Source: a virus
Virus record (IMG/VR): IMGVR_UViG_3300024344_000023
Span: 1 to 50,645 of that record
DNA: 50,645 nt
Reading direction: 5' to 3' (one strand)
Each line of letters begins with the position of its first letter. Position 1 is the first letter of the stretch. Shown here piece after piece: positions 31,872-42,588 of this stretch. The notes below the pieces were generated by a model. The model saw nothing but the letters and a program-made list of their open reading frames with translations, had not been told where the DNA came from and did not search any database. The translations under genes were made by a program, and so were the position numbers.

Positions 31872-33342
31872 ATTAAACACAGAAAAACTGCTGGAAAGAT
31901 ACCCAGACGCAGCAAAACAACTCCTTGATATGCAGCAGGCGCTAAAAGCCAAAGAACTGCAACGAGTAGGACAAGACAGCTTTATTACTTACATAAAACA
32001 CATGTGGCCCGACTTTATTGAAGGGCGACACCACAAGATTTTTGCTGAAAAACTGGAACAAGTGGCCCGTGGAGAGCTAAAACGGCTGATTATTAACATG
32101 CCACCACGTCACACAAAGAGTGAATTTGCCTCCACATACTTTCCATCTTGGGTTTTGGGACGCAATCCGAAACTAAAAATCATGCAAATCACGCATACGG
32201 CAGAACTGGCCTTTCGTTTTGGTCGAAGAGTCAGAGATTTGATTGATTCTGAAGAATACAAAAGCGTTTTTCCCAATGTTGAGCTAAAAGCGGACAGTAA
32301 ATCCGCAGGACGTTGGGAAACCAACGGTGGCGGTGAGGCGTTTTATTCCGGTATTGGCGGTGCGGTCACGGGCCGTGGTGCGGATATACTGGTTCTCGAT
32401 GACATTCACTCGGAACAAGACGCACTGTCACCAACAGCACTGGACAATGCGTGGGAATACTATTCTTCTGGGCCAAGGCAGCGTCTACAACCCGGCGGTG
32501 CCATCATAATCGTGATGACCCGATGGGGGACCAAGGACCTGACAGGGAGACTGTTGTCAAAACAAACAGACGAGCACGCAGATCAGTGGGAAGTTGTAGA
32601 ATTTCCTGCAATTATGCCCAGCGGAGAGGCTTTATGGCCCGAATATTGGACTGTTCCAGAGCTAGAAGGCGTAAAAGCGTCTCTTCCTGTATCGAAATGG
32701 GAAGCACAATGGATGCAAAAACCGACATCTGAAGAAGGCGCGATACTAAAAAGAGAGTGGTGGAAGCTTTGGGAAGAGGAACGCGTGCCCAATATGCAAT
32801 TTGTCATACAAAGTTATGACACAGCATTCAGTAAGAAAGAAACCGCAGACTTCTCTGCTATTACCACATGGTGCGTGTTTTACCCCGATGAGGGCGGTGA
32901 ACCGAACCTTTTATTGCTGGATGTACGTAAAGGACGTTGGAATTTTCCAGAACTAAAGAACATTGCGTTTGAACAATACGAATACTGGGAACCTGATATT
33001 GTGATTATTGAAGCCAAGGCCAGTGGTATGCCGTTGACACATGAATTGAGGCAAACAGGAATACCCGTGCTCAACTATTCGCCGAACAAAGGACAAGACA
33101 AAGTGGCAAGAGTCAATGCCGTTTCTCCTATATTAGAGGCTGGAATGGTCTGGGCCCCGGACAAAAGGTGGGCGGAAGAACTGATTGAGGAGTGTGCTGC
33201 TTTTCCTTTTGGCGACCATGATGATTTGGTGGATTCGACCACACAAGCGCTGTTGCGTTATCGACAAGGCGGCTTTATTGCTTTAGAATCAGATGAACTG
33301 ATGGACAACGATTATAAACCCCCTAGAAAAGAATATTATTAA
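31864..33342 (+). CDS. terL: Terminase large subunit
   Basis: This 492-residue packaging motor starts at a GTG inside the end of the preceding gene. The ATPase has an atypical Walker A, NMPPRHTKSE (78-87), Walker B ILVLDD (175-180) followed by IHS, and coupling motif IIVMTRWG (216-222). The nuclease half shows D319 in QSYDTAF, E383 in IIEAKASG and D451/D454 in GDHDDLVD. This terminase pumps DNA through the portal and cuts it. It ends in a TAATG overlap with the next gene. Its small subunit lies 7 kb upstream across the accessory island. Confidence 0.97.
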   Translation: MTKLNTEKLLERYPDAAKQLLDMQQALKAKELQRVGQDSFITYIKHMWPDFIEGRHHKIFAEKLEQVARGELKRLIINMPPRHTKSEFASTYFPSWVLGRNPKLKIMQITHTAELAFRFGRRVRDLIDSEEYKSVFPNVELKADSKSAGRWETNGGGEAFYSGIGGAVTGRGADILVLDDIHSEQDALSPTALDNAWEYYSSGPRQRLQPGGAIIIVMTRWGTKDLTGRLLSKQTDEHADQWEVVEFPAIMPSGEALWPEYWTVPELEGVKASLPVSKWEAQWMQKPTSEEGAILKREWWKLWEEERVPNMQFVIQSYDTAFSKKETADFSAITTWCVFYPDEGGEPNLLLLDVRKGRWNFPELKNIAFEQYEYWEPDIVIIEAKASGMPLTHELRQTGIPVLNYSPNKGQDKVARVNAVSPILEAGMVWAPDKRWAEELIEECAAFPFGDHDDLVDSTTQALLRYRQGGFIALESDELMDNDYKPPRKEYY

Positions 33343-34739
33343 TGGCAACAGAACAGGAAAAGACAGACAAAGAACTATTGGGCGCCTTTCTTAGACAGAG
33401 AGGTATGGATGAATCCATCACAGCCGGACCGGAAGAATACCGACAATTTGGCAGAGGCATTGCCAGAGGTTTACCGCTTATGGCTGGTCTGCCAGCGGAC
33501 CTGGGCCAAGCAGCTTTAAAAATTATGTATCCCGAACAGTTTAAAGACGTAGAGTATTTTTCTGCGCCTTTTGGTGGAGAGTACCTTGCAGAAAAAATGG
33601 GACTGGGACGCGAAGGAGGTGGCTTAGAAGCACTTGGAGAAGTAGCAGGAGGCTTTGCCAACCCCGAGTTACTACTAAAAGCCGGTGTTTTGGGGATGAC
33701 AACTAAAGGCGTGCCTTTTATTGAAAAACAAATTGAGCGAGCAATCAAACAAGGATTGCTTCCCAAAACAGCAAAGGCGGTAGGGGGAGCAGAAAGAAAA
33801 ACTTTTAGAGAAGTTTTACAAGAAGCGGAAGAACAAAAGAAGTTAGCGGAAACACTAAAAGCTGAAAAAGGCAACCCGTGGGGAATTGCTCCCACTAAAA
33901 TTAAAAAAATAGAAGATGTGGCAGACGACTACATTAGAGAAACCAGAGAAAAATTGTACGGAGGATTAGACGACCTTTCTAAAGCGGGTGTTTTATACAA
34001 CATGGAAAAAGCCACTGACGCGTTAAAAGCGGAAGGTTTTATACCCTTAAAAGGGTTTAAGCCCGGCACAAACAACCCACAAGTTTTAGAAGAAGGAAAA
34101 GTTTATTTCTTTAATCGAGCACACGCTAGAGGAGACTTAAAAGACACACAAGGGTTTTCAACCAACCCTGATTTGGGAATGGACATAATAGTTGGCGGGA
34201 AAGACGGCATGGCAGACGCAGTGATGCAAATAACTATGGACCCAAAAATGGGCGACATTATTGATAATCCTTTTTATGTGGGTCAATTACGTTCTAACAC
34301 TCCGGTCGGAGGACAAAGAGCAATAAAACAACTTGGGCCCATTTTGGATAAACTGAACATTGAAATCCATATGAACCCTGGTTTTATGTCAAATTGGAAA
34401 ACACAAAGGCAGTCGGTATTAACAGAGCATTATGCAGAACTGGATAAAAACATGAGAGGCACACCCTATTCAGATAAATTTGCTAAACAAATAACTGACA
34501 TGAAAGAGCGCTTGGCCAAAAAACCAGACACCTTTAATCCGAAACTTCATACAAGTAGAACAGAAAAGTTGAAGTCTTGGTACGAAAGAGTGGGAAACTT
34601 TGCCCCCGATGAGTCAACAGGAAGCTATGTAAGAAAAGCAGACTATGACCGCTACTTAGAGTGGCAAGCGAAACAAATACCTAAAAAGGGGATAGGTGGA
34701 CTTATAGCCACGAACAATACTCGTTTGCGAAGACCCTAA
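33342..34739 (+). CDS. Unknown 465-residue protein between TerL and portal
   Basis: It starts at an ATG overlapping the TerL stop. The N-terminus is helical with a hydrophobic GRGIARGLPLMAGLPADLGQ patch, like the N-termini of internal virion proteins. The middle is a charged helix (EVLQEAEEQKKLAETLKAEK). The C-terminal half holds a beta-rich segment: VYFFNRAHARGDLKDTQGFS and NPDLGMDIIVGGKDGMADAV, then GQLRSNTPVGGQRAIKQLGP. I do not recognise a family. Proteins in this slot are usually packaged or assist portal assembly, so a virion-carried effector is possible. Confidence 0.78.
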   Translation: MATEQEKTDKELLGAFLRQRGMDESITAGPEEYRQFGRGIARGLPLMAGLPADLGQAALKIMYPEQFKDVEYFSAPFGGEYLAEKMGLGREGGGLEALGEVAGGFANPELLLKAGVLGMTTKGVPFIEKQIERAIKQGLLPKTAKAVGGAERKTFREVLQEAEEQKKLAETLKAEKGNPWGIAPTKIKKIEDVADDYIRETREKLYGGLDDLSKAGVLYNMEKATDALKAEGFIPLKGFKPGTNNPQVLEEGKVYFFNRAHARGDLKDTQGFSTNPDLGMDIIVGGKDGMADAVMQITMDPKMGDIIDNPFYVGQLRSNTPVGGQRAIKQLGPILDKLNIEIHMNPGFMSNWKTQRQSVLTEHYAELDKNMRGTPYSDKFAKQITDMKERLAKKPDTFNPKLHTSRTEKLKSWYERVGNFAPDESTGSYVRKADYDRYLEWQAKQIPKKGIGGLIATNNTRLRRP

Positions 34740-34961: not shown

Positions 34962-37424
34962 ATGGTAGATGAATTTAAACAGCCGACTAATATTGATCGG
35001 GTCACGGATCTTATTGACCTAGACATTGAGGCTGGTCAAGAGGTCGAAATCGAAGCACCTCTTCCGGAAGACATGGATATTGAAGTCAACTTTGCTCAAG
35101 ACGGCAGCGCTGTTCTTGACTTCATGCCAGACGAAATGAACGTCGAGGCCATGATTCCATTTAACGCAAACCTTGCAGAATACATGGATGAGGGAGAACT
35201 CGGTGCATTATCGGCGCAACTCATGGGCGATTTTGAAGAAGATCGAATGAGTCGTGACGAATGGGAAGACACTTATGTAAAAGGACTGGACCTGCTTGGG
35301 TTTAGGTATGAAGACCGAGACAGACCTTTTCCCGGAGCCAGTGGTGTAACACACCCTCTCCTTGCTGAATCAGTCACACAATTTCAAGCGTCTGCCTTTA
35401 AAGAACTGCTTCCAGCAAGAGGCCCTGTAAAAACAGAAATCATTGGTGCGGCAACACCAGAAGTAGAAGCGCAGGCAGATCGTGTGCGCGAGTTTATGAA
35501 TTATGAAATTACGTGTGTTATGGAAGAGTACACACCTGAGATGGACCAGTTGTTGTTTTATTTACCACTGGCCGGTTCTGCATTTAAAAAAGTTTATTAC
35601 GATCCTTCACTGCAAAGAGCAGTCAGTAAGTTTGTTCCAGTAGAAGATTTGGTTGTGCCGTATGCGGCGAGTGATTTAGAAACATGCAGTAGAATTACAC
35701 ACGTCGTTAAAATGAACTATAACGAAGTTCGCAACCAACAATTGTCTGGATTTTATCGTGACATAGAAATTACACCAGCCTACAACACCACACAAACAGT
35801 GACGCAAGACAAAGTAGAAGAGATTGAAGGCATTAGTGGCGCGGGCAATGACATGATGTATGAATTACTGGAGTTTCATGTGGTCATGGAAATTCCGGGG
35901 TTTGAGGATCCAGACGGATTGCACCTGCCTTTTATTATTACAATTGACAGAACGTCGGGAAGAGTGTTGTCAATTAGACGCAACTACTATGAAGACGATC
36001 CACTAAAACAAAAAGTCACTTATTTTGTTCATTACAAGTTTCTCCCAGGACTGGGTTTCTACGGCTTTGGTTTAATCCACATGATCGGCGGTCTGTCCCG
36101 AACTGCAACAGCAGCGCTTAGACAACTCGTTGACGCAGGAACCCTGTCCAACCTCCCGGCTGGTTTTAAAGCCAGAGGCATAAGAATTAGGGATGATGAG
36201 ACACCTTTAGAACCCGGTGAATTTAGAGACGTGGACGCACCGGGGGGCGCTTTAAGAGATTCTTTGATGCCTCTCCCTTATAAAGAGCCAAGTGGAACCT
36301 TATTCAATTTAATGGGCTTTTGTGTAGAAGCCGGTCAGCGCTTCGCTGCCATCACAGACATGCAAGTTGGCGAAGGCAATGAACAAGCGGCAGTCGGAAC
36401 GACATTGGCACTCATGGAACAGGGGACCAAGGTCATGTCCGCGGTCCACAAACGACTGCATTACGCACAAAAAACAGAATTTAGAATATTAGCCAGAGTA
36501 TTTTCAGAATATCTACCACCAGAATATCCGTATCAGGTTGTTGGTGGAGACCAGATGATAAAACAAGCGGACTTTGATGGTCGCGTTGACGTCATTCCAG
36601 TATCTGATCCAAACTTTTTCTCTTTTGCACAACGTATCTCACTTGCTCAACAAGAGCTACAACTGGTGCAAAGCAACCCAGAAATACACAACATGAAAGA
36701 AGCCTATCGCAGAATGTATACTGCGTTGGGATCGGAGAACATCGAAGCACTTTTGATGCCCGATCCACCTCCTCCAATGCCGGTAAGTCCAGCGCTGGAG
36801 AACGCTTCGGCAATGATGGGCGCACCTTTAACCGCTTTTCCAGACCAAGACCACGATGCGCACATAGAGTCGCACATTTCTTTTTTAGAAAACGCCATGG
36901 CAAAAATGAATCCAATGGTGTCTACAGCATTGTTGTCTAACATTTTTCAACACGTTGCGTTTAAAGCTGAACAGATTGCAGAACAACAATTACAACAAAT
37001 GGCGCAACAAGACCCTCAATTGCAACAGCAACTGATGCAAGAACAACAGATGATGCAACAGTCAATGATGGCAGAACAACAGGGGATGCTTGCACCACCT
37101 ATGCCGCCTAACCCCATGAGAGAGCAGCTTAAAGCACAAACCGAAGCCGGTTTACTTGACGATTTAATGCCGCGAATAAACGAAATTATGGCTGTGGCAG
37201 AAGGCAACGAGGGTGTATTGGCATTGAAACAAGAAGAACTTATGATAAGATCACAAGAGAACGAAGACGACAAACGCATCGCTGAAGAGAAACTGGAGCT
37301 TGAGCGTGAAAAAATGAACGTGCGGGAAGAAACCGACGAAGAGAAGATGAGAAGCCAAGAAGACATAGCAGCACTGAGAGCATCTATTTCTCGTGAAAAA
37401 ATGGAACAAGCTAAGAAGAAATAA
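34962..37424 (+). CDS. Portal (head-tail connector) protein
   Basis: This 820-residue portal forms the dodecameric DNA channel at one capsid vertex and docks TerL. Recognisable parts are FEEDRMSRDEWEDTYVKGLD, RPFPGASGVTHPLLAESVTQ and FQASAFKELLPARGPVKTEI near residues 80-160. YLPLAGSAFKKVYYD, VPVEDLVVPYAASDLETCSR and KFLPGLGFYGFGLIHMIGGL follow, then a long Gln/Met-rich C-terminal region (residues ~670-720) and a charged coiled coil that would form the internal barrel. The length, over 800, fits long-barrel podovirus portals. It ends with a TAATG overlap with the Hint-domain gene. Confidence 0.93.
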   Translation: MVDEFKQPTNIDRVTDLIDLDIEAGQEVEIEAPLPEDMDIEVNFAQDGSAVLDFMPDEMNVEAMIPFNANLAEYMDEGELGALSAQLMGDFEEDRMSRDEWEDTYVKGLDLLGFRYEDRDRPFPGASGVTHPLLAESVTQFQASAFKELLPARGPVKTEIIGAATPEVEAQADRVREFMNYEITCVMEEYTPEMDQLLFYLPLAGSAFKKVYYDPSLQRAVSKFVPVEDLVVPYAASDLETCSRITHVVKMNYNEVRNQQLSGFYRDIEITPAYNTTQTVTQDKVEEIEGISGAGNDMMYELLEFHVVMEIPGFEDPDGLHLPFIITIDRTSGRVLSIRRNYYEDDPLKQKVTYFVHYKFLPGLGFYGFGLIHMIGGLSRTATAALRQLVDAGTLSNLPAGFKARGIRIRDDETPLEPGEFRDVDAPGGALRDSLMPLPYKEPSGTLFNLMGFCVEAGQRFAAITDMQVGEGNEQAAVGTTLALMEQGTKVMSAVHKRLHYAQKTEFRILARVFSEYLPPEYPYQVVGGDQMIKQADFDGRVDVIPVSDPNFFSFAQRISLAQQELQLVQSNPEIHNMKEAYRRMYTALGSENIEALLMPDPPPPMPVSPALENASAMMGAPLTAFPDQDHDAHIESHISFLENAMAKMNPMVSTALLSNIFQHVAFKAEQIAEQQLQQMAQQDPQLQQQLMQEQQMMQQSMMAEQQGMLAPPMPPNPMREQLKAQTEAGLLDDLMPRINEIMAVAEGNEGVLALKQEELMIRSQENEDDKRIAEEKLELEREKMNVREETDEEKMRSQEDIAALRASISREKMEQAKKK

Positions 37425-38899
37425 TGGCAATATTACCAAAAAACCCACTCACAAACGAAAAGTTACTTCCTGACGATATTTCTATTAGGTCGTGCCCAAG
37501 TCCAGAAGAACATATTCAACTAGCAAATAACGATTGGATATTGGCCGGGGAAATTAAAGTAGGTGATGAAGTTATTACTTCAGAAGATCCTCAGAAAGTA
37601 ACTTTTGCAAAAACAATTGAAGATAGTCCAAGACGAGAAGTTTTGTTTACAAAAGGAGACAGTATTGTAACATCACCTAGTCACCCTTATTTTGTAAAAA
37701 ACAAAGGTTTTGTAGACGTAGAAGATTTGAAAGAAGGGGATGAAGTTGGGGACCTGATTGTTAGTGAAGTAAAACCTTTCTCCGATGGCCCTGTAATTCA
37801 TATTTCAGTGGACAAAGTTCAAACTTATATGCTACGAGGCGGAACAGAAGAAAACCCTGTGCCTGCTTTGTCGCATAATAAATTACCACCACCCGAATCA
37901 AGAGACCCGGGCCAAGGCTTTAATTTTAGTGATTTTATGACTGCGGCCGATGCGGAAGAGCTTTTTAGAAACATGGACACCAGCGGGATTGAGGCCGGTG
38001 TTTTACAAAAAATGGGTGTTCCAGACTTTCTAACAAACACTCAAGTACAGGACGCCATAAACCAAGCTCTTGGAGCAACAGACTTTCTAAGCCAAGAAGA
38101 CGTTGAAAGAATGCTGCAACAACAAATGAACAATCAAAACATCGATTTAAGTGATTACACAACAAGCTCAGATCTTTCTGGTTTTTTGACTCAAGAGCAG
38201 ATTCAACAAATGATTGCAAACGCTCAGATGCAAGGCATGACCGAAGATCAAATTTTAAAGATGATTCAAGAAGTCACAGGCGGCCAAATGAGCGATGACG
38301 CTATAAGAGAACTTATAGCTGAAGCCGTGGCTGGAGCCGGAGGGCTTACCGAACAACAGATTCAACAAATGATTGATGCAGCGATGGGCGGAGGCATGAC
38401 TGCCGAACAAATCCAAGACATTATTGCACAACAAGGATATTTAACAGAAGACCAAATTAAAGCCATGATGGGAGAGTCAGGGTATTTAGGACAAGAAGGA
38501 GTAAACGCCTCTGTTCAAGCGGCTCTCGATGCTGCACTAGGACAAGGCGGAGCAATCGATTCTGCTATTGCAGCCGCCATGCAAAACACCGGTACAAGTA
38601 CAAACTATCCCGAATTAAATCCTATATATTCACCAGGAGGACCAAGGCCAGGTTTTGAATATGACATGGGTTTTGGAACTTGGTCTCCGTCTGCGCCACC
38701 ACCAAATAATCCTTATGGAAACACAAACCCTTATGAATTAATGCTAGGACCCTTTGCTGGAATGACGCCTTTTGCTGGTGGAACCAAAACAGGAATTGAA
38801 ACCATAGCGCCGCCTCAAACAACACCAATAATTATAAATAAAACACCTGACGGTATTCCAACCCAACCTTTAAAAAAAGAAATGGTTTACGGCGGATAA
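37424..38899 (+). CDS. Virion protein with intein-like Hint domain
   Basis: In this 491-residue protein, residues C24 to N152 look like a Hint (intein-type) domain. C24 starts the domain, ILAGEIKVGDEVIT is block A-like, TSPSHPYF (83-90) contains the conserved His87 of block B, LKEGDEV is an internal repeat, VDKVQTYMLRGG is block F-like, and SHN (150-152) is the terminal His-Asn. The next residue is Lys, not Cys/Ser/Thr, so full splicing is unlikely and cleavage is more plausible, as in bacterial intein-like domains. The rest has repeated LTEQQIQQMI-type units (about residues 205-350) and a proline-rich end. It lies between portal and GroES. Confidence 0.8.
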   Translation: MAILPKNPLTNEKLLPDDISIRSCPSPEEHIQLANNDWILAGEIKVGDEVITSEDPQKVTFAKTIEDSPRREVLFTKGDSIVTSPSHPYFVKNKGFVDVEDLKEGDEVGDLIVSEVKPFSDGPVIHISVDKVQTYMLRGGTEENPVPALSHNKLPPPESRDPGQGFNFSDFMTAADAEELFRNMDTSGIEAGVLQKMGVPDFLTNTQVQDAINQALGATDFLSQEDVERMLQQQMNNQNIDLSDYTTSSDLSGFLTQEQIQQMIANAQMQGMTEDQILKMIQEVTGGQMSDDAIRELIAEAVAGAGGLTEQQIQQMIDAAMGGGMTAEQIQDIIAQQGYLTEDQIKAMMGESGYLGQEGVNASVQAALDAALGQGGAIDSAIAAAMQNTGTSTNYPELNPIYSPGGPRPGFEYDMGFGTWSPSAPPPNNPYGNTNPYELMLGPFAGMTPFAGGTKTGIETIAPPQTTPIIINKTPDGIPTQPLKKEMVYGG

Positions 38900-39103: not shown

Positions 39104-39583
39104 GTGAGTGACGCCACCACCGCCCTTGAAGAGAAGTGGGCGCAAGAAGAGGCTAGTAAAGCGCCTTTAGAAAAAGCTTACGAAAAAATTGGACAAAAGA
39201 AAACGGATGAGGAGAAACTCAATCCAGAAAAACTTTCTTCCGATTTATTAAGCCAACTGCCTACTCCAACAGGGTGGAGAATACTCATTCTTCCCTATCG
39301 TGGAAAAACTCGAACAGAAGGCGGTATTTATCTCACAGAACAAACAGTGGAACGACAACAACTGTCCACGGTCCTTGGTTATGTGTTAAAGGTTGGCCCT
39401 TTGGCTTACCAAGACGAACAGAAGTTTCCAACAGGACCTTGGTGCGAAGACGGAGATTGGGTGTTGTTTGGACGATATGCCGGTTCTCGTTTTGATATAG
39501 AAGGCGGCGAAGTAAAAATTCTTAACGACGATGAAATCATCGCTAAAGTAGAAGACCCAGAAGCAATTCTGCATAATTATTAA
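39104..39583 (+). CDS. groES: Phage GroES-like co-chaperonin
   Basis: This 159-residue protein starts at a GTG four bases after the preceding stop. After a charged ~55-residue N-terminal extension comes a GroES (Cpn10) fold: PTPTGWRILILPYRGKTRTE, then GGIYLTEQTVERQQLSTVLG (the mobile loop region), VLKVGPLAY, WCEDGDWVLFGRYAGSRFDI and ILNDDEIIAKVEDPEA. Phage GroES proteins such as T4 gp31 cap the host GroEL to fold the large capsid protein. Position between portal and scaffold fits that. No GroEL is encoded, so it must use the host's. Confidence 0.93.
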   Translation: MSDATTALEEKWAQEEASKAPLEKAYEKIGQKKTDEEKLNPEKLSSDLLSQLPTPTGWRILILPYRGKTRTEGGIYLTEQTVERQQLSTVLGYVLKVGPLAYQDEQKFPTGPWCEDGDWVLFGRYAGSRFDIEGGEVKILNDDEIIAKVEDPEAILHNY

Positions 39584-41679: not shown

Positions 41680-42588
41680 ATGGCAATAAGTAGAGCGCAA
41701 CTCGTAAAAGAATTGCTACCTGGCTTGAATGCTCTCTTTGGACTAGAGTACGGCAGATATGACAACGAACATGAAGAAATTTATGACGTTGAATCAAGTG
41801 ACCGCGCTTTTGAAGAAGAAGTTATGCTTACCGGTTTCGATGCAGCACCCGTTAAATCTGAAGGAGCAGGTGTAGCATTCGACTCAGCACAAGAAGCCTT
41901 TACCTCTAGGTATACCCATGAAACCATTGCTTTGGCGTTTTCAATTACTGAAGAAGCTATCGAAGATAATCTTTATGACAAATTGTCAGCAAGATACACT
42001 CGTGCGCTTGCAAGAAGTATGTCAAACACTAAGCAAGTAAAAGCAGCATCTGTCTTAAACAGAGCCTTTAACACAAGTTATTTAGGCGGCGACGGTAAAG
42101 AGCTTTGCGCAACTGACCACCCAACTGTAGGTGGCGCTAATTTGCGTAATGAACTTTCTACCTCTGCTGACCTTAACGAAACTTCGTTAGAGCAAGCACT
42201 GATTGACATTGCAGCATTTACAGATGAGCGTGGACTAAAAGTAGCACTTCAAGGAATGAAACTAATCATCCCTAAAGAACTACAGTTCACTGCTGATAGG
42301 CTCATGGAAACACCTGGTCGTGTAGGAACTTCTGATAATGATATAAACGCAGTACGCAACATGGGCATGGTCCCTGAAGGCTACGTCGTAAATCATTATC
42401 TTACTGATACCGATGCCTGGTTCATTAAGACTGATTGTCCAAACGGTTTCAAAATGTTTAACCGTTCGCCAATCAAGACTTCAATGGAAGCAGACTTCGA
42501 TACTGGTAATGTTCGATATAAGGCACGCGAAAGATATTCGTTTGGGTGGTCTGACCCCCGAGCAGTCTTTGGCAGCCCCGGAGCATAA
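41680..42588 (+). CDS. Major capsid protein
   Basis: This 302-residue protein forms the capsid shell. It has ISRAQLVKELLPGLNALFGL, then DRAFEEEVMLTGFDAAPVKS and EGAGVAFDSAQEAFTSRYTH as the N-arm/E-loop region, AFSITEEAIEDNLYDKLSAR, ATDHPTVGG, and PKELQFTADRLMETPGRVGT, ending RERYSFGWSDPRAVFGSPGA. This order, especially the SI(T)EE(A)xEDNxYxxxSAR and DHP(T/I)xGG elements, matches the HK97-fold Mu-like major head subunit family. GGAG precedes the ATG. A weak terminator follows, common after capsid genes. Confidence 0.92.
   Translation: MAISRAQLVKELLPGLNALFGLEYGRYDNEHEEIYDVESSDRAFEEEVMLTGFDAAPVKSEGAGVAFDSAQEAFTSRYTHETIALAFSITEEAIEDNLYDKLSARYTRALARSMSNTKQVKAASVLNRAFNTSYLGGDGKELCATDHPTVGGANLRNELSTSADLNETSLEQALIDIAAFTDERGLKVALQGMKLIIPKELQFTADRLMETPGRVGTSDNDINAVRNMGMVPEGYVVNHYLTDTDAWFIKTDCPNGFKMFNRSPIKTSMEADFDTGNVRYKARERYSFGWSDPRAVFGSPGA

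Follow-up and report, generated by a model that had tools for sequence, protein, structure and literature searches.

A Hint domain that very likely moves as a cassette with exact borders among structural-region genes of marine phages

The portal-adjacent gene and its Hint domain

The window analysed here is the entire 50,645-nucleotide stretch of a marine virus of bacteria (IMG/VR record IMGVR_UViG_3300024344_000023, positions 1 to 50,645), in which a 130-residue, intein-like Hint domain sits in the gene adjoining the portal gene. This host gene (P0001; 37424-38899, plus strand, like its parts and the portal, GroES and capsid genes named here) encodes 491 residues and starts directly after the portal protein gene (34962-37424; phrog_1216, 2e-57). 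It is followed downstream by a GroES co-chaperonin gene (39104-39583; Pfam Cpn10, phrog_3188) and by the major capsid protein gene (41680-42588; Pfam Phage_capsid_4, phrog_371). A PHROG search with the host gene gave no match, and the gene order, with the portal gene before it and the GroES and capsid genes after it, makes it a likely virion gene. The GroES gene is phage-encoded, lies inside the head gene cluster and is retained throughout the relatives. Between terminase and portal, a 465-aa open reading frame (33342-34739) has no significant family match; two large unannotated open reading frames are found at the terminase-portal position in phages HTVC027P and 023Pt_psg01.

The translated host protein consists of an N-terminal part (residues 1-23; 37424-37492) that differs between relatives in the DNA alignment of empty sites, the Hint cassette of 130 codons (37493-37882), and a repeat-rich C-terminal part (residues 154-491; 37883-38896) that is kept in relatives without the Hint domain. 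The C-terminal part is built of helical LTxxQIxxMI-type repeats; its phmmer match to a TAL effector structure (3e-18) is produced by these repeated helices and is probably compositional. The repeat count varies strongly between relatives. Dockerin-like motifs, for example DVNQDGAIDLLDAIWINQMAEGLRDP (Ca-binding-loop-like), occur in the N-terminal part of the portal-adjacent gene in contigs L014, L016, L020, L023, L100 and L103, whether the Hint domain is present or absent.

Profile, fold and border evidence delimit the cassette as Cys24 to His151-Asn152-Lys153, with the +1 Lys included. The initial annotation, made from the letters of the window, had described Hint blocks from C24 to N152 (37493-37879), and the translation has each of them in place: C24, KVGDEV, SPSHPYF with His87, TYMLRGG and H151-N152-K153. 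Cys24, the nucleophile of block A, occupies cassette position 1 (TGC, 37493-37495) and is invariant in 37 of 37 full-length copies, as are the Ser and His of the block B SxxH motif, which runs from Ser84 to His87 (cassette positions 61 to 64; 37673-37684) and aligns with block B of the bacterial intein-like (BIL) structure 2lwy. The block F region, placed by alignment of the copies, spans Asp130-Tyr135 (cassette positions 107-112, DKVQTY; 37811-37828); at the block F His position the window copy has Gln, and the other copies have Glu, Gln or His, usually Glu or Gln. Block G, His151-Asn152, together with the invariant +1 Lys153 (37874-37882; 37/37 copies), forms the 3' border.

Searched in isolation, the domain matched Pfam PT-HINT (1e-7; 32.7 bits against a cut-off of 27.7), as did 25/25 family members scanned (E <= 0.01). 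The window domain matched 2lwy by phmmer (5e-5), and the family profile matched the same A-type BIL structure at 9e-9. Two AlphaFold2 models were of low confidence (pLDDT 55 and 58, with the minimum at both cassette ends); when these low-confidence models were searched with Foldseek, the best PDB matches were inteins, BIL and BUBL-BIL domains (E down to 2e-6, probability 1.00), with 6riy at the top (E 2e-6, TM 0.59-0.63). The best PDB matches of both models were all Hint, so the objection that a match at fold level might be missing, foreseen in the initial annotation, falls away. With the fold and sequence blocks A, B, F and G of the Hint superfamily all found, C24-N152 is practically certain to be a Hint domain. 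It is also free of an endonuclease insert, as had been proposed, having a fixed length of 130 aa with nothing inserted between blocks B and F. Cys24 is the sole Cys of the entire host protein, and Cys is scarce in Hint host proteins (4 in 12,768 residues); we do not take this scarcity as evidence because low-complexity composition may explain it.

Copies, borders and gene slots of the cassette

Two scans with the domain located the family in 39 IMG/VR contigs. With P0001 as query, no copy was found in 50,697 phage records, and a genome scan found no member among 84,980 prokaryotic genomes. An hmmsearch of all open reading frames of 143 sequences (142 loci plus the window) gave either a full-strength match (or a contig-end fragment) or none, and a looser block B pattern, run on viral contigs, added only four sequences to this family: a chance match, a pretoxin-like Hint gene, an intein in a terminase and a fragment whose block B is Hint-like. 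Full copies all have 130 residues, are free of indels and end in HNK. The host proteins are diverse (Pro-rich, Gly-rich, collagen-like or helical-repeat), and the cassette starts anywhere from residue 24 to past residue 700. Two cassettes share one open reading frame in L009, L015, L016 and L020, and a second copy in L014 is truncated by the contig end. No report of this Hint family in phage structural genes was found in searches of open-access literature.

Many copies are accompanied by a Trp-rich motif, xRWxxNPPQxGDPxFxxYxxWW, placed ~22-28 residues before Cys1 or ~26 after Lys130; the window copy is without it. The motif is confined to Hint-bearing open reading frames among the first 143 sequences, and in the viral collection 15/15 confirmed loci lie on Hint-family contigs (e.g. 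L020:4868-4981). This companion motif and the invariant +1 Lys are new features.

Cassette borders were determined from DNA identity per codon in 661 copy pairs with unrelated flanks. Identity rises from 0.29 at the codon before Cys1 to 0.83 at the Cys codon, and drops from 0.98 at the Lys codon to 0.38 at the next codon. Unrelated flanks surround cassettes with DNA identity up to 95%, and the flanks are low-complexity linkers that fall into 16 left and 14 right classes. By synteny, the cassette is found in the portal-GroES interval (the majority of contigs), in the gene immediately upstream of the homologue of window gene 43900 (L008), in a giant open reading frame with a phrog_3287 structural gene on one side and a DNA-ejection-type gene on the other (L049; L050 is similar), and in a gene adjoining a cluster of tail-spike, lysozyme and phrog_3287 genes (L025, L026; L032 is similar). 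The cassette thus occupies at least three different structural-region genes, and probably four; the lower count is given because the last two slots may be related.

Cassette identity does not correlate with portal identity (Spearman 0.09, p 0.16, n=244 pairs). The window cassette is 93% identical in protein to that of L010, with portals at 57%, and 71-72% identical to those of L034 and L056, with portals at 85-87%. Among contigs with a portal about 85% or more identical to that of the window and a visible next gene, the cassette is present in 6 and absent from 22. These 22 close relatives supply the comparison with insert-free genomes that the initial annotation had recommended, and the same C-terminal part occurs in Hint-less relatives. 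The DNA alignment of the empty sites is conserved on both sides, with a variable stretch of ~25 codons at the place of the cassette. Taken together, the sharp borders, the several genes, the absent correlation with the portal and the cassette-free close relatives indicate that the Hint block is very likely a mobile cassette with exact borders despite the missing endonuclease. The earlier view that a domain without an endonuclease insert is not mobile does not hold in effect: the block behaves as a mobile cassette, lying in frame within several unrelated genes and with borders exact to the codon.

It is extremely unlikely that the many contexts are metagenome assembly chimeras formed at repeated sequence, although L005 (1-2266) is a probable chimera of two Hint genes from one phage type. 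Identity is 100% between its 5' part and the portal-slot gene of L009/L037 and 94% between its 3' part and the L008 gene, with the intervening capsid genes missing; if real, L005 would mean that capsid genes were deleted by recombination between cassettes. Exact runs of at least 55 bp in common with another cassette also occur in many single-contig arrangements. However, the window arrangement occurs in 4 contigs and has at most 41 bp in common with any other cassette, six arrangements occur in at least 2 contigs and three more are free of a shared run >50 bp, and the distinct host genes (e.g. L025/L026) and empty relatives are independent of chimeras. Our conclusions are based on arrangements in at least 2 contigs, on gene slots and on empty relatives, with the caveat that contigs of different IMG samples may share overlapping read sets. 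L005, otherwise set aside, is still counted in the border and portal statistics, where it contributes only 2 of about 39 copies.

Recombination between copies is visible in L010 and L021, which are 99.6% identical across the portal as far as the start of the Hint gene, where the N-terminal parts become unrelated. Their cassettes have 78% identity over the full length, with the two sequences almost the same over roughly the final 70-80 cassette bases and beyond, a pattern that implies a recombination joint within the cassette 3' end. Flank classes on the two sides of the cassette occur in re-assorted combinations, and mosaic cassettes exist as well, so homologous recombination between copies accounts for part of the shuffling. 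The switch inside the L010/L021 cassette, the re-assorted flanks and the mosaics would also fit a joint acting at the DNA level, that is, a conserved stretch in hypervariable genes at which co-infecting phages swap N- and C-terminal modules by homologous recombination. This is unlikely to be the explanation, as it does not account for protein-level purifying selection on catalytic residues or for the sharp 5' border, and flank class hardly predicts a similar cassette half. Such exchange is probably a side effect that acts alongside the autoprocessing cassette proposed below.

Selection on the cassette and its terminal lysine

Among 27 non-redundant cassettes, mean dS is 1.13 (near saturation) and median dN/dS is 0.096; the cassette is under strong purifying selection (dN/dS about 0.1). 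Eight residues are invariant in 37/37 full-length copies: Cys at cassette position 1, Ser at 61, His at 64, Asp at 107, Thr at 111, His at 128, Asn at 129 and Lys at 130. By contrast, flank residues vary, with seven different residues at -1 and four at +2; of 24 arrangements, 20 have Ser or Thr at +2, and the window has Leu. This conservation makes it quite probable that the domain is catalytically active. Small beta domains act as spacers in several virion proteins, and an exapted, catalytically silent Hint fold might similarly provide a fibrous virion protein with a rigid beta domain. We regard this as very improbable, since a scaffold would not require Cys1, His, Asp and HN, which are kept in every copy at saturated synonymous divergence.

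The Lys after the Asn is present as the initial annotation had it, but every full-length cassette ends with this residue, which is not an incidental part of the flank, and the unit is accordingly extended to 37493-37882. That an unvarying Lys is part of the cassette suggests a role for its side chain, conceivably as an acceptor; positioning, an influence on pKa or a constraint acting on the DNA of the 3' end are other conceivable reasons. Few synonymous changes were seen in all copies at cassette positions 127-130 (window 37871-37882; TCG 23/27, AAT 27/27, AAA 26/27), hinting at a DNA-level constraint or at recent gene conversion.

Relation to known domains, proposed processing and significance

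The cassette resembles A-type BILs (C. thermocellum BIL, PDB 2lwy) in its Hint fold, its N-terminal Cys and C-terminal His-Asn (37/37), its non-nucleophilic +1 residue (Lys in 37/37, with no +1 Cys, Ser or Thr) and its lack of an endonuclease. The proteins that carry A-type BILs are not conserved, and the domains occupy their hypervariable regions (PMC7765530); the window cassette likewise lies in a variable portal-adjacent gene. Unlike A-type BILs, it occurs as near-identical cassettes with codon-exact borders in phage structural-region genes, with the Trp-rich companion motif and a block B SxxH, and its +1 residue is always Lys whereas that of BILs is variable.

Other Hint classes share some of these features. 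Class 1 mini-inteins have the Hint splicing domain, Cys1, the block B His and HN, but the cassette differs from them in lacking a +1 Cys, Ser or Thr and a homing endonuclease and in its many unrelated insertion sites. Class 1 inteins were rejected on the +1 Lys of all copies and on sites that are low-complexity linkers, not the conserved active-site motifs found in conserved enzymes, and full-length homing inteins on the fixed length and the uninterrupted span between blocks B and F. Class 3 inteins (MchDnaB1, PDB 6riy/6rix), which give the best fold match, are similar to the overall fold of the model; this class was rejected as the cassette has Cys1 and lacks the Cys that the WCT motif places in block F. 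B-type BILs are without block G similarity, whereas block G HN is present in 37/37 copies. PT-HINT (pretoxin Hint, PF07591) is the best Pfam profile and exceeds its cut-off, but a pretoxin Hint of a polymorphic toxin was rejected because Pfam and NCBIfam gave no toxin family after residue 153 and the gene is a phage gene adjoining the portal. In Hedgehog Hog, a sterol recognition region follows the Hint; the part of the host protein that follows it here is made of helical repeats. The VidaL intein (PDB 6vgv) has a short local match, partial and weak (E 0.0062), at the IQLANNDWILAGELKVGDEV region of the family; unlike the Hint family here, VidaL is a splicing intein.

On balance, we consider it moderately probable that the block works as a Hint autoprocessing domain of the A-type-BIL-like kind. 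It would pass from one marine phage to another as a 130-codon cassette, exact and in frame, that is inserted into disordered linkers of proteins encoded in the structural region. Counted against this reading are the low AlphaFold2 confidence, the block B Ser where Thr is usual, the block F His position, which is usually Glu or Gln, and the unvarying +1 Lys, which BILs do not have as a feature. In the proposed reaction, Cys24 would attack the preceding peptide bond (N-S acyl shift) with the assistance of block B His87, and Asn152 would cyclise with the help of His151, freeing Lys153. The thioester to residues 1-23 would then be hydrolysed or captured by an amine of the C-terminal part. Expected products would be a 23-residue peptide, the 129-residue Hint domain and a 339-residue protein beginning with Lys, with a ligation of 1-23 to 153-491 as a minor product; the host protein would be cut at one or both cassette edges, or ligated by aminolysis. 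A-type BILs mostly cleave, with some splicing via a freed amino group that attacks the N-terminal thioester (PMC4031507). The initial proposal that Lys at +1 blocks splicing at the last step is supported as regards A-type-BIL-like rather than canonical chemistry, but the blocked step is transesterification (branched intermediate), and A-type BILs retain splicing by aminolysis of the N-terminal thioester (PMC4031507).

The same aminolysis could serve a selfish self-splicing element, which would excise itself and rejoin the host parts through the freed alpha-amine of Lys, leaving one extra Lys, and would persist by moving and not by helping the phage. Excision and rejoining would make insertions tolerated. 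Exact borders, presence or absence in close relatives, several unrelated host genes and intact catalytic residues are all compatible with such an element, and A-type BILs can splice without a +1 nucleophile (PMC4031507). Nevertheless we hold it to be possible but somewhat unlikely: the sites are disordered linkers, where tolerance would scarcely require splicing, the endonuclease is absent, A-type BILs predominantly cleave, and attack by the alpha-amine does not require an invariant Lys. It is quite improbable, though conceivable, that the side-chain amine of the +1 Lys attacks the Cys1 thioester and that Asn cyclisation releases the Hint domain, so that an isopeptide bond links the N-terminal part to the C-terminal part or to an adjacent subunit. 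If true, the cassette would give phage particles a transferable means of cross-linking proteins.

The phage would most likely use an autoprocessing cassette to process or diversify virion-associated proteins that are long and disordered. A maturation switch, as first suggested, is possible; phages that are nearly identical may have or lack the cassette, and this patchiness speaks against an assembly step that the phage cannot do without.

The usual picture of inteins is one of movement into a single conserved site by means of a homing endonuclease. Here, an endonuclease-free Hint domain is found in several unrelated phage genes with codon-exact borders. It is strongly selected, and its presence or absence distinguishes phages that are nearly identical. 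Two questions thereby become testable: the use of BIL-type domains, and the way in which Hint domains without an endonuclease spread. If active, the cassette would be a naturally context-tolerant, 130-residue self-cutting domain for disordered linkers.
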